DNA from: Acidobacteriota bacterium | GTDB lineage: Bacteria; Acidobacteriota; Terriglobia; Terriglobales; Acidobacteriaceae | NCBI GenBank assembly: GCA_013290025.1 | Contig: JABCYV010000010.1 | Location: 1-44,951 of the forward strand | Direction of reading: 5' to 3' | Length of the DNA stretch: 44,951 bases | In this document: piece by piece, positions 22,583 through 31,534 of the stretch | Layout: each line of letters starts with the position of its first letter | Numbering within the stretch: the stretch's first letter is position 1 | Notes under the pieces: generated by a model | Database searches by the model: none | What the model was told of the DNA's origin: nothing | Seen by the model: the letters and a program-made list of their open reading frames with translations, nothing else | Made by a program: the position numbers and the translations under genes

Positions 22583-23500
22583 TCATGCGGGTTTCGCGCA
22601 CTCCAGAGACTCCATGAAGAGGCTCTGGAGTGCGCGCCCCATCGATGTACTAGTTTTTTCTGTCGCACGCCTGTGTAGCTCCGCGAATGCCGCCGGCGTT
22701 CGGTCCGCCAGGGCGCTGTGCGGCCGTTCGTGATTGTAATGTTCGCGGAACTTCGCCAGCTTCTGCCGCGCATCATCCAGCGAAACAAACCATTCCACGT
22801 TCAGACACTCGTCTCGCAATCGCTCGTTGAAACTTTCGATGAACCCGTTTTCCACCGGACGGCCCGGACGAATGAAACACAACTGCACGTCGTGGCCCAT
22901 CACCCAAGCTTCCAGGGCCCGACTACTGAACTCACTGCCATTGTCCACCGTAATGCTGCCCGGCAGACGTCCTCGCTCTGCTTTGGCTCTCTCCAGCGCC
23001 TGGGCTACTTGCATTCCGGTCATGGCACGATCCGCTTCCAAACAGACGCACTCCCGCGTGAACTGGTCCACCACCGTCAAAATGCGGAACGAACGGCCGT
23101 CGGCGAACTTGTCGCTCATAAAGTCCATGCTCCAACATTGGTTCGGAGCTGTCGCTGTTGCTCTGGCTCCACGCTGACGACGGGCGATCTTCCGCCGCTG
23201 CTTGGTGCGCACGATCAACTGTTCCTCGCTGTACAACCGGTAGATCCGTTTCGCGTTCACCTTCCATCCGTCTCGGCGCAACAACACGGTCAAACGCCGG
23301 TAGCCATAGCGCACGTGGCTGGCCGCCATCTCGCACAAGCGCCGCCGCAACACCGCATCGAACCGCCGCACTTTTTTCTTGTACATCCAGGTTGACCAAC
23401 CAATCTTCATCAGCCTCGCCACTGCCCGATCTGGTAGGTTTGCTGAGCCCATTGCCCCAGCTTCCGTCGCAGGCCAGGCTTTACAGCTTTTTTGGCACAA
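22583..23500 (-). CDS. IS3-family transposase OrfB (DDE integrase core), N-terminus out of frame
   Basis: This frame encodes the rve/DDE catalytic domain: NQCWSMDFMSDKF (first Asp), SITVDNGSEFSS (second Asp) and GRPVENGFIESFNERLRDECLN (Glu), then HSALADRTPAAFAE. OrfB normally strand-transfers the element as an OrfAB fusion made by -1 frameshifting. The expected OrfB start (KPGLRRKLGQWAQQTYQI) is found in the -1 frame relative to orfA and then hits stops. The rest of OrfB continues from about RAVARLMKI in a different frame. One base appears to be missing near 23430. The product is probably inactive unless translated from an internal ATG, or unless the base is a sequencing error. Confidence 0.85.
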   Translation of the reverse strand: MCQKSCKAWPATEAGAMGSANLPDRAVARLMKIGWSTWMYKKKVRRFDAVLRRRLCEMAASHVRYGYRRLTVLLRRDGWKVNAKRIYRLYSEEQLIVRTKQRRKIARRQRGARATATAPNQCWSMDFMSDKFADGRSFRILTVVDQFTRECVCLEADRAMTGMQVAQALERAKAERGRLPGSITVDNGSEFSSRALEAWVMGHDVQLCFIRPGRPVENGFIESFNERLRDECLNVEWFVSLDDARQKLAKFREHYNHERPHSALADRTPAAFAELHRRATEKTSTSMGRALQSLFMESLECAKPA

Positions 23501-23747
23501 TCTCCTGCAGGATCTGGCGATCCAGGCTGAGATCCGCCACCAGCCGCTTCAAGCGCCCGTTCTCTTCCCGCAGCTGCCGTAACTCTCGCAGCTCATTGAT
23601 CCCCAACCCGGCATATTGTTTCTTCCACGCGTAGTAGGTCCCCTCGCTGATTCCCACCTTGCGGCAAATATCGGCCACCTTCTCGCCCGCTTCTCCCTGG
23701 CGCAGAACCGCCACGATCTGCTCTTCGCTGTGAGCCTTCTTCGGCAT
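23481..23747 (-). CDS. IS3-family transposase OrfA (helix-turn-helix protein)
   Basis: This 88-residue protein starts MPKKAHSEEQIVAVLRQGEAGEKVADICRKVGISEGTYYAWKKQYAG, a Tnp_1-type HTH domain that binds the IS ends, followed by a leucine-zipper-like helix (LRELRQLREENGRLKRLVADLSLD). It ends ...PKKL at the heptamer AAAAAAG, the usual programmed -1 frameshift signal for making OrfAB. The ATG at 23747 lies 80 bases inside the right IS end and is preceded by GGAGAGGAGAAGGG. Confidence 0.93.
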   Translation of the reverse strand: MPKKAHSEEQIVAVLRQGEAGEKVADICRKVGISEGTYYAWKKQYAGLGINELRELRQLREENGRLKRLVADLSLDRQILQEIVPKKL

Positions 23748-24725: not shown

Positions 24726-24868
24726 TGGCGGAAGTGACAGGATTCGGAACCTGCGGTACGCCCTTAAGGGAAAAGATAGATACGTCCGTCCTCCAAGACG
24801 GTGAGTCTTCTCGCAAACGATACGTCCGAGTATCAATCGGATGCAATAGGCCGCTCTGCCACACTCCC
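24726..24868 (-). tRNA. tRNA-like locus with encoded CCA and over-long central region (possible pseudo-tRNA)
   Basis: On the minus strand GGGAGTG at the 5' end pairs with CACTTCC at the 3' end (six Watson-Crick pairs and one G-T), followed by G73 and an encoded CCA. GCAG/TTGC form a D stem with the class II GTGGCAGAGCGG sequence. GCAGG/CCTGT form a T stem, but its loop TTCCGAAT has one extra base. After the D arm, TCCGA-TTGATAC-TCGGA would give anticodon GAU. Further on, CCGTC-TTGGAG-GACGG offers a GGA (Ser) loop, which would fit G73 and a long variable arm. CGGACGTATC occurs after both arms, as if the segment had been duplicated. At 143 nt it is far too long for a normal tRNA. Confidence 0.5.
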
Positions 24869-25402
24869 GGTATAAATGTGAACACTCGTCGGACGTTCCG
24901 CACAGTTGTAAAAATCGGTCTCGTCGATCTTGGTGTGACCAGCGGATTCATGCGCGTGTCCAAAGAGGTGGACGCGAGGCTTAAGCCGTTGGACGGCGGT
25001 CAAGAGCCGTGGGCAGCCAAGAGCCTTTCCGTAGAGCCCTTTGTCGAGCACACCCGCAGGCGGGACATGTGACATCAAGACGTCACACGGCTGTATGTCC
25101 GTTGCGCCATACGAAACGCCATAGAAGCGAACGCCGTCAACGTCAATCGAGTTGTTATTCAGGAGAGTGATGCCCTGCTCAGCCAGCAGCTCTTCCGCGT
25201 TCGATTGCATCTTCAGAACCAAATCATGATTGCCTTGGACGAATAGCTTTCTCTTATGAGGGAGCGAACCAAGCCAGCGTAAATCACTCCGAAGAGACTG
25301 CAGATCATCTCCGCAAAAGACATCACCAGCGACGCATAAAACGTCACCCTCAGGGATCGTAGGACGTGCTCCGTGCGAATCACTGAACATCACGAGGTTC
25401 AT
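24833..25402 (-). CDS. Calcineurin-like metallophosphoesterase
   Basis: This 189-residue member of the metallophosphoesterase superfamily has the canonical metal-binding motifs: MFSDSHG (D-x-H), VAGDVF (GD), QGNHD (GNHD), LMSHVPP and FGHAHES (GHxH). It should hydrolyse a phosphoester with two metal ions in the cytoplasm. The substrate is unknown. The track ORF starts at 25501, but the domain begins at the ATG at 25402 (MNLVMFSDSHG). No ribosome site is obvious. The 3' end runs into the tRNA-like gene: the last residues VAERPIASD are translated from tRNA sequence, so the natural C-terminus may have been replaced by recombination at the tRNA. Confidence 0.85.
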   Translation of the reverse strand: MNLVMFSDSHGARPTIPEGDVLCVAGDVFCGDDLQSLRSDLRWLGSLPHKRKLFVQGNHDLVLKMQSNAEELLAEQGITLLNNNSIDVDGVRFYGVSYGATDIQPCDVLMSHVPPAGVLDKGLYGKALGCPRLLTAVQRLKPRVHLFGHAHESAGHTKIDETDFYNCAERPTSVHIYTGSVAERPIASD

Positions 25403-25649
25403 GTCATCAGTATAGATGTGCCTGCAGGCATGGCCAAATGGCACGAAATAATAGGACGCAGGCACGCCAACGCAAGCAATTGCACTTGCAGTCGCTGACA
25501 TTCACAGAATCAGCGGAGTCAGCAAAGCAGCGAGTGACACGCTAGAGGCCGCCTTATTGGGTGGCTGTTCTCGCCAGTTATCCTTACAGCATCGTGCTTT
25601 TGGGCGAGGTAGTGACCAGAGTAATGACCGGCCTTTCAGGCTTGAACGC

Positions 25650-30631: not shown

Positions 30632-30811
30632 TTGGGTTCCAGGGAGGCAGTGCTACTCGGGCAGGCGCATAGTAGGCACCCCGTCACGGCCCGTGCAGAC
30701 CAGCTGCGGCCCGAGACCCTGCTTTTGCACTCGATCGCACGCTGCTTTGGGTTCCTACCGGCCGAACAACAACAGGCATTTGTGGCCCATGCCCTTGAGA
30801 AGGCGTCGTGA
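30632..30811 (+). CDS. Uncertain ORF overlapping the HNH endonuclease start
   Basis: The frame is open from 30558 and ends TGA, overlapping the GTG start of the HNH gene (GTGA). It reads SREAVLLGQAHSRHPVTARADQLRPETLLLHSIARCFGFLPAEQQQAFVAHALEKAS, which looks like a genuine helical protein and is coupled to the endonuclease. No ATG exists. TTG at 30632 or GTG at 30650 are the only starts, both weak. It may be the truncated end of a larger gene. Confidence 0.35.
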   Translation: MGSREAVLLGQAHSRHPVTARADQLRPETLLLHSIARCFGFLPAEQQQAFVAHALEKAS

Positions 30812-31050
30812 ACCGAATTCGACCCAAGAACCCTCGGCTGCGACTCACCCCCGAGTTGTACGACCAAGCATGTCAGCACGTACTTCGTCGAGACGGTTGG
30901 CGATGCCAGAGTTGCGGCACCATGTCGAATCTTGAAGTGCACCACCAGGCATTTCGCAGCCACGCCGGCGACGACTCGGAGGAGAATCTGATCACTCTTT
31001 GCGCAGGCTGCCATGCCGGTATCCACACGGGCACACAGCTTTGTCATTAA
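30808..31050 (+). CDS. HNH endonuclease domain protein, 80 aa
   Basis: This small nuclease has the full HNH signature with zinc knuckles: DGWRCQSCG, then NLEVHHQAFRSHAGDDSEENLITLCAGCHAGIH. The two His of VHHQ, the Asn of ENLITLC and the last His form the metal-dependent DNA-cleaving site, with CxxC pairs binding zinc. Stand-alone HNH proteins of this size are often mobile or selfish. The start is GTG at 30808 overlapping the upstream stop. Its 3' third plus the following 20-odd bases is duplicated at 39180, so this sequence has moved within the genome. Confidence 0.85.
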   Translation: MNRIRPKNPRLRLTPELYDQACQHVLRRDGWRCQSCGTMSNLEVHHQAFRSHAGDDSEENLITLCAGCHAGIHTGTQLCH

Positions 31051-31534
31051 GACGGTGGAGCGATTTTTGGCATGGCTGTACGGGAAACCGTACCGACGGT
31101 TCAAATCTACCTCGCTCCGCCACGTAGTCTGGGTCCAGAGAAACCCGGCTGCATTCCGGCTAAAAATCGCTGAAAATCGGCGCAATTCTGCGATTCTCTT
31201 CCTGAACCGCACCGGAGAAAGGGTCGCTCTTCGTTGCGCAGGCGAGCTTTGGTGCCTTTTTCTCTACATGGCTCTCCCCCAGTCCGGTTTCAATGACTCC
31301 ATCGTGTGCCTGTGTTGTAGACTCGGCCACCCGCTGGAGATCCGTGCTACTTCGTGCGCCGATGCCCCTGTTGCGACCAAGTGAACTTTTGACTCCCGTT
31401 AAGCGTGCCCTGAACAAAATCGTTGTTTGCTATTGGCCTCTGTTCGTATCGGGATTGCCAGGTGGGAGATGGTGACTTTCGTGGTTATAGGTCGCGCAAT
31501 CGGCAGTTAAGAATCACGATCGACAATCCGCCCC
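31051..31534. other. 484-bp intergenic region, arm of a 20-bp inverted copy
   Basis: No gene is supported. CAGTCCGGTTTCAATGACTC at 31280-31299 is the exact reverse complement of 29604-29623. The long plus frame from 31013 (MPVSTRAHSF...) begins as a shadow of the HNH tail. Confidence 0.45.

Follow-up and report, generated by a model that had tools for sequence, protein, structure and literature searches.

Irregular tRNA-like genes have already been reported from soil Acidobacteria (review PMC7609411, which cites Mukai et al. 2017). According to this review, some irregular tRNAs in soil data have additional stems, UAU ranks with the most predominant anticodons of allo-tRNAs, and a pseudogene of the UAU allo-tRNA group in Edaphobacter overlaps a transposon-related ORF (PMC7609411). 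The allo-tRNAs and irregular tRNAs of soil Acidobacteria are like the gene described here in serine-type identity, a possible isoleucine-codon anticodon, extra stems, overlap with an ORF and, if the host is an acidobacterium, phylum. They differ from it in that allo-tRNAs have 8/4 or 9/3 acceptor/T stems, whereas ours are 7/5, and in that the reported fifth stem of irregular tRNAs stands between the acceptor and the D arm, whereas the extra arm here lies beside the anticodon arm (PMC7609411). Archaeal intron-containing or permuted tRNA genes are over-long too, but our gene belongs to a bacterial genome and shows no sign of removal. The tRNA-Ser(UGA) and tRNA-Ser(CGA) of the host are likewise type II serine tRNAs, and phage tRNA-Ser genes (with GGA in IMG/VR contigs L096, L102 and L104, and with GCT in a Streptomyces phage) resemble our gene in D arm, acceptor, T stem, G73 and CCA, yet are 86-92 nt long, have a single anticodon arm and close the T stem with a 7-nt loop, against 143 nt, two arms and an 8-nt T loop here. 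We regard the gene as real and unusual, and probably as a relic that belongs with the known irregular, mobile-element-linked tRNA-like genes.

Layout of the 143-nt gene

The window, meaning the whole 44,951-nt stretch that was analysed, is an entire contig of a draft genome (327 contigs, 82% complete), whose phage and gene content point to an acidobacterium as the probable host. Read on the minus strand from 24868 to 24726, it encodes a 143-nt tRNA-like RNA including CCA, whose positions are numbered as p = 24869 minus the window position. A covariance model that we call R1, for which 15 serine tRNAs were taken from phages and from this genome, was used alongside the Rfam tRNA model; the features are as follows.

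24726-24868, minus strand: whole tRNA-like gene (Rfam tRNA 35.1 bits; R1 62.5 bits, E = 3.9e-14)
24862-24868, minus strand: acceptor 5' strand GGGAGUG, pairing with 24730-24736
24843-24859, minus strand: D arm GCAGAGCGGCCUAUUGC, identical to the D arm in tRNA-Ser genes on phage contigs
24825-24841, minus strand: arm 1, canonical (5-bp stem, 7-nt loop), anticodon GAU at 24832-24834; the arm chosen by Rfam tRNA and R1
24819-24828, minus strand: direct repeat CGGACGTATC, copy 1 (p41-50)
24802-24818, minus strand: linker joining arms 1 and 2, GUUUGCGAGAAGACUCA, from sequence reading, with no convincing match
24786-24801, minus strand: arm 2, 5-bp stem and 6-nt loop UUGGAG, GGA at 24792-24794; assigned by likeness to phage tRNA-Ser(GGA)
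24779-24788, minus strand: direct repeat CGGACGTATC, copy 2 (p81-90)
24756-24783, minus strand: variable arm if arm 2 is read as the anticodon arm, with a GUAU/GUAC stem and a 20-nt inner part, from suboptimal folds
24737-24754, minus strand: T arm, 5 bp, 8-nt loop UUCCGAAU with one additional C, from pair listing and R1 alignment
24726-24736, minus strand: acceptor 3' strand CACUUCC, discriminator G73 and CCA, from sequence reading and pair listing
24833-25501, minus strand: metallophosphoesterase ORF, likely start 25402 (Pfam Metallophos, PHROG metallo-phosphoesterase)
22583-23747, minus strand: IS3-family transposase pair (NCBIfam transpos_IS3, HTH_Tnp_1)
31057-31122, plus strand: second tRNA-Ser relic (R1 32.3 bits, E = 2.2e-6)

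The RNA begins GGGAGUG UG GCAGAGCGGCCUAUUGC A and ends GCAGG UUCCGAAU CCUGU CACUUCC G CCA. A first-pass annotation had described acceptor, D and T stems, a discriminator G and an encoded CCA around a centre some 50-60 nt too long, with two anticodon-like hairpins (GAU and GGA) each carrying CGGACGTATC at its 3' side; all of these parts are present at 24726-24868 on the minus strand, and the excess amounts to about 51-57 nt over the normal serine tRNAs of this genome and of phages (86-92 nt). That annotation did not mention on which strand the gene lies, nor that the loop of arm 2 has 6 nt and the T loop 8.

The acceptor stem has 7 bp (p1-7/133-139), all seven of them standard pairs with one G3:U70, and the D stem has 3 bp, to which a G-U may add a fourth; A14, G15, G18G19 and A21 are retained. 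The T stem has 5 bp (p115-119/128-132), and every pair in the acceptor, D, arm 1, arm 2 and T stems is standard. The acceptor cannot be extended, as p8 and p132 are both U, and by its 7/5 stems the gene is not an allo-tRNA. A 7-nt T loop is near-universal in bacterial tRNAs and shapes the elbow, so the 8-nt loop UUCCGAAU, found in place of a 7-nt loop of TTCRANY pattern, should disturb the elbow.

Model scores and the choice of anticodon arm

With the full Rfam tRNA model (RF00005) and permissive filters, the gene scored 35.1 bits, above the gathering threshold (29 bits), and its R1 score in the window ranked third genome-wide, after two normal serine tRNAs with 95.8 and 93.6 bits. The likeness to tRNA is not chance, and scores of 35.1 and 62.5 bits are not the values far below cutoff at which, with no mature transcript, the first-pass annotation would have taken the gene for a plain pseudogene. 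With filters off on a short stretch, R1 gave a poorer local placement. The gene was not detected in an Rfam search with default filters, was not listed in a first-look RF00005 search of its own genome, and was not called by ARAGORN with or without intron modes. Long tRNA-like genes with otherwise sound stems thus escape standard tRNA finders, and since the first-look search misses this one, similar long genes may well be present elsewhere without having been listed. Unconstrained folding gave pair probabilities of 0.75-0.83 for both arms and 0.6-0.7 for the outer stems and did not favour the D stem, and the whole fold was as stable as that of shuffled sequence (z = -0.22).

Both covariance models take arm 1 (p28-44, UCCGA UUGAUAC UCGGA, loop UUGAUAC) as the anticodon arm and the remainder as the variable region; R1 pairs the first GUAU (24820-24823), in place of the GUAU that follows arm 2, with the same GUAC that precedes the T arm. 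The gene has the serine-type body, long variable arm and G73 of a type II tRNA-Ser, as reflected in the R1 score, but in place of a single 5-bp/7-nt arm with a serine anticodon it has two arms, of which the canonical one reads GAU.

SerRS recognises the acceptor and the variable arm and not the anticodon, so a GAU tRNA of this kind would be charged with serine and would place serine at isoleucine codons. A working serine-accepting tRNA with the isoleucine anticodon GAU and a giant variable arm enclosing the GGA hairpin would agree with the layout picked by both models and with the canonical form of arm 1, and it is made less far-fetched by another Ser-type GAU tRNA in viral contigs L082 and L086 and by an 8/4 allo-tRNA with UAU in the same genome; hairpin tags in the variable arm are also tolerated in engineered allo-tRNAs (PMC7590224). 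Against it stand the 8-nt T loop, the lack of visible conservation or of orthologues in our searches, the closure of the insert by a variable-arm stem of just 4 bp (GUAU/GUAC), and the cost to the host of serine at isoleucine codons, and we consider such a tRNA unlikely. That a functional serine-accepting GAU tRNA, with the GGA-like hairpin held in its giant variable arm, would serve for conditional Ser-for-Ile misreading or as a phage decoy seems to us decidedly unlikely. If the RNA were expressed and charged, a tRNA with two hairpins would test the limits of tRNA shape as well as serine delivery at isoleucine codons in soil bacteria.

Phage-type parts and a probably rearranged centre

The D arm, GTGGCAGAGYGGYCTATTGC in DNA, is common among the tRNA-Ser genes of viral contigs, and the 3' end of the gene (T arm plus acceptor) is 96.6% identical over 29 nt to a Streptomyces phage tRNA-Ser. 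The serine tRNAs of the host differ in the sequences of D arm, variable arm and T stem, and tRNA-Ser(UGA) and tRNA-Ser(CGA) are clearly not the direct parent; the parent type is best read as a phage tRNA-Ser. Arm 2 (p68-83, CCGUC UUGGAG GACGG), with a loop one nucleotide short, resembles the GGA arm of the phage tRNA-Ser(GGA) in contigs L096, L102 and L104, sharing 11 of 12 nt in CACC(N)TCTTGGA. By shuffling, P was about 0.013 for arm 2 alone and about 0.06 over the whole central stretch, which suggests a modest likeness, weak but detectable. Arm 1 gave no comparable match to the phage tRNA-Ser(GGA) arms.

In the phage tRNA-Ser(GGA) genes, CACCATCTTGGAAAGGTGG follows directly after the D arm (TTGCACC.TCTTGGA), so the roughly 40 nt that separate the D arm from arm 2 could be read as a removable, intron-like insert in a tRNA-Ser(GGA), in line with the first-pass suggestion of an insertion that must be removed. 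Group I and group II introns are larger than such a segment, which has no Rfam intron match, ARAGORN intron modes found nothing, and in what would be left after excision the anticodon loop still has 6 nt and the T loop 8. Excision of either 40-nt segment did not restore a canonical tRNA, in that ARAGORN recognised none of the excised versions, even with a 7-nt T loop, and we find this explanation scarcely credible.

The two copies of CGGACGTATC lie exactly 40 nt apart, each beginning in the final stem bases of its arm, and when the 143 nt were shuffled, 0.6% of the resulting sequences contained an exact 10-nt repeat. Apart from this repeat, arms 1 and 2 share little. An internal duplication or recombination product within a serine-type tRNA had been proposed at first pass; the R1 fit, the equally placed repeats and the likeness of arm 2 argue for rearrangement and the serine type holds, though with a phage tRNA-Ser rather than the host's serine tRNA as parent, and a simple 40-nt tandem copy is less likely than a fusion of paralogous genes. 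The fusion of two genes is favoured over plain tandem duplication because the arms are unlike outside the repeat and arm 1 has no phage match. We infer the fusion event from sequence comparison, intact parent genes not having been found in the searches.

Based on these data, we favour a phage-type tRNA-Ser gene that was rearranged by fusion or partial duplication and is probably a young, non-decoding relic. It may have arisen when two related tRNA-Ser-type genes in the tRNA set of a phage recombined, or by partial duplication within one; the 5' half of one gene would have contributed the acceptor, D arm, GAU arm and start of the variable arm, and the 3' half of the other the GGA arm, variable arm, T arm and acceptor. 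The fused product would then have stayed next to other mobile DNA in the chromosome of the bacterium, carried as a relic at the 3' end of the metallophosphoesterase gene. Since the outer halves still pair, a transcript might serve as a substrate for RNase P and CCA-dependent enzymes, but ordinary decoding appears unlikely with an 8-nt T loop and so crowded a centre. The non-decoding relic is the most likely reading given that T loop and no conservation that would support use, and it is also most consistent with the serine-type score, the intact outer stems, the repeat placement, the phage-like D arm, 3' end and arm 2, and the single copy. Weighing against the relic are the all-standard stem pairs, unusual in a decayed pseudogene unless it is young, and the canonical loop of arm 1; weighing against a fusion are the lack of intact parents in our searches and the modest likeness of arm 2, with its P value over the centre. 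Of the marks of a pseudogene, the gene shows lesions at conserved positions (indels in the T loop and the GGA loop) and has no orthologue in the 60 + 399 genomes searched, but it has neither disrupted stems nor a low covariance score. Even if a relic only, it would offer a clear snapshot of phage tRNA gene recombination and a remnant of phage DNA in an uncultured bacterium.

DNA searches found the gene as a single copy in its own genome and no relative or parental copy there, in 60 related genomes or in 399 genomes of the class; one weak 30-nt match (L002) was unrelated and without a tRNA, and a plasmid match was due to chance. An intact tRNA-Ser(GGA) was likewise missing from the assembly, which is also without several other tRNAs, and so its absence is uninformative. 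In IMG/VR, neither the exact 5' part nor the exact 3' part was matched in pattern scans, and the 8-nt T loop was matched in one contig only, without a recognisable tRNA. No two-armed relative was found in the IMG/VR or GTDB pattern scans, which require near-exact matches and can be escaped by distant relatives. Nine matches from a gapped-pattern scan of GTDB were all unrelated on inspection, and five of them represented one Verrucomicrobia repeat. That repeat (L066, L068, L070, L071 and L072), reading GCAGAGCGGTGCTGCAC...GCGTCTTGGAGTGCGG, is a dispersed, well conserved element of more than 100 nt in a Verrucomicrobiales bog MAG and is unrelated to tRNA.

Genomic surroundings and other tRNA-like genes

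The final 11 codons and the stop of the metallophosphoesterase ORF lie inside the tRNA-like gene, with the stop in the loop of arm 1, and homologues of the protein have a comparable C-terminus. The gene for this enzyme is phage-like and rare (6 of 399 class genomes, its own included), and its best phage match is in Tunturi_5, a 309-kb Acidobacteriota phage; its pairing with a tRNA-like gene was not seen elsewhere, three homologue loci having given no Rfam match. An artefact of assembly or sequencing might be suspected in a metagenome-style draft of this contig number and completeness, the more so as both loop-length anomalies are single-base indels, but the ORF continues into the gene without a break, and misassembly repeats do not typically combine a 40-nt spacing with differing arms, and we judge an artefact very improbable.

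The IS3 element lies about 1 kb beyond the tRNA-like gene, and no attachment-site-like repeat of the tRNA 3' end was found within the window. The second tRNA-Ser relic, 6.2 kb away, has a perfect acceptor stem, a variable arm and CCA but is missing its D and anticodon arms, and its 3' 48 nt share 85% identity with the genome's own tRNA-Ser(UGA). The rare phosphoesterase overlap, the nearby IS3 element and this second relic form a context most consistent with the relic reading of the 143-nt gene. In the acceptor stem of the second relic, one compensated pair differs from the genome's own tRNA-Ser, and an HNH-like reading frame (30799-31050) lies just ahead of it.

A further possibility is a tRNA-like RNA without decoding function that a phage or mobile element retains for some other role, for which a decoy for tRNA-cutting defences, a processing signal or a charged reservoir are candidates, and with a central domain that changes freely. 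Long tRNA-like RNAs in viral contigs L085, L092 and L098, which share the D arm, are missed by ARAGORN and have the anticodon position or variable region replaced, are consistent with such an RNA, as are the irregular tRNAs of unknown use reported from soil (PMC7609411), but beyond common tRNA parts these three are not closely related to our gene, which is also single-copy in its genome, and we hold this possibility to be quite improbable.

Several tRNA-like genes were noted in passing. Those at L092:4706-4825(+) and L098:4224-4329(+), IMG/VR contigs, score 54.3 and 50.3 bits with the serine model and have the same acceptor and D arm and the same T loop, TTCTAAT, with a variable region of the form GGGATTC[hairpin]GGGCCCC. 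A 20-nt perfect palindrome stands in place of the anticodon arm in L098, and in L092 its place is taken by a stem of 8 bp whose 18-nt loop is complementary to the variable region; L087 carries a truncated copy of the same type. The 108-nt RNA at L085:4932-5039(-) and L095:12489-12596(-), also in viral contigs, has an anticodon arm with CGC and a variable region of 36 nt, scores 56.5 bits with the serine model and is missed by ARAGORN. At L081:6300-6580(+), another viral contig, tandem units of T arm, acceptor, short loop, acceptor and D arm form circularly permuted tRNA-like modules, with a match of 48.5 bits, below cutoff, to the Y RNA-like family YrlA. The Ser-type tRNA with a GAT (Ile) anticodon at L082:9448-9537(-), and in L086, has its first acceptor bases unpaired. 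The allo-tRNA of our own genome (L025:625-711(-), C38:12648-12734) has an 8-bp acceptor, a 4-bp T stem, UAU and a serine-type variable arm, and is labelled tRNA-Ile by ARAGORN.
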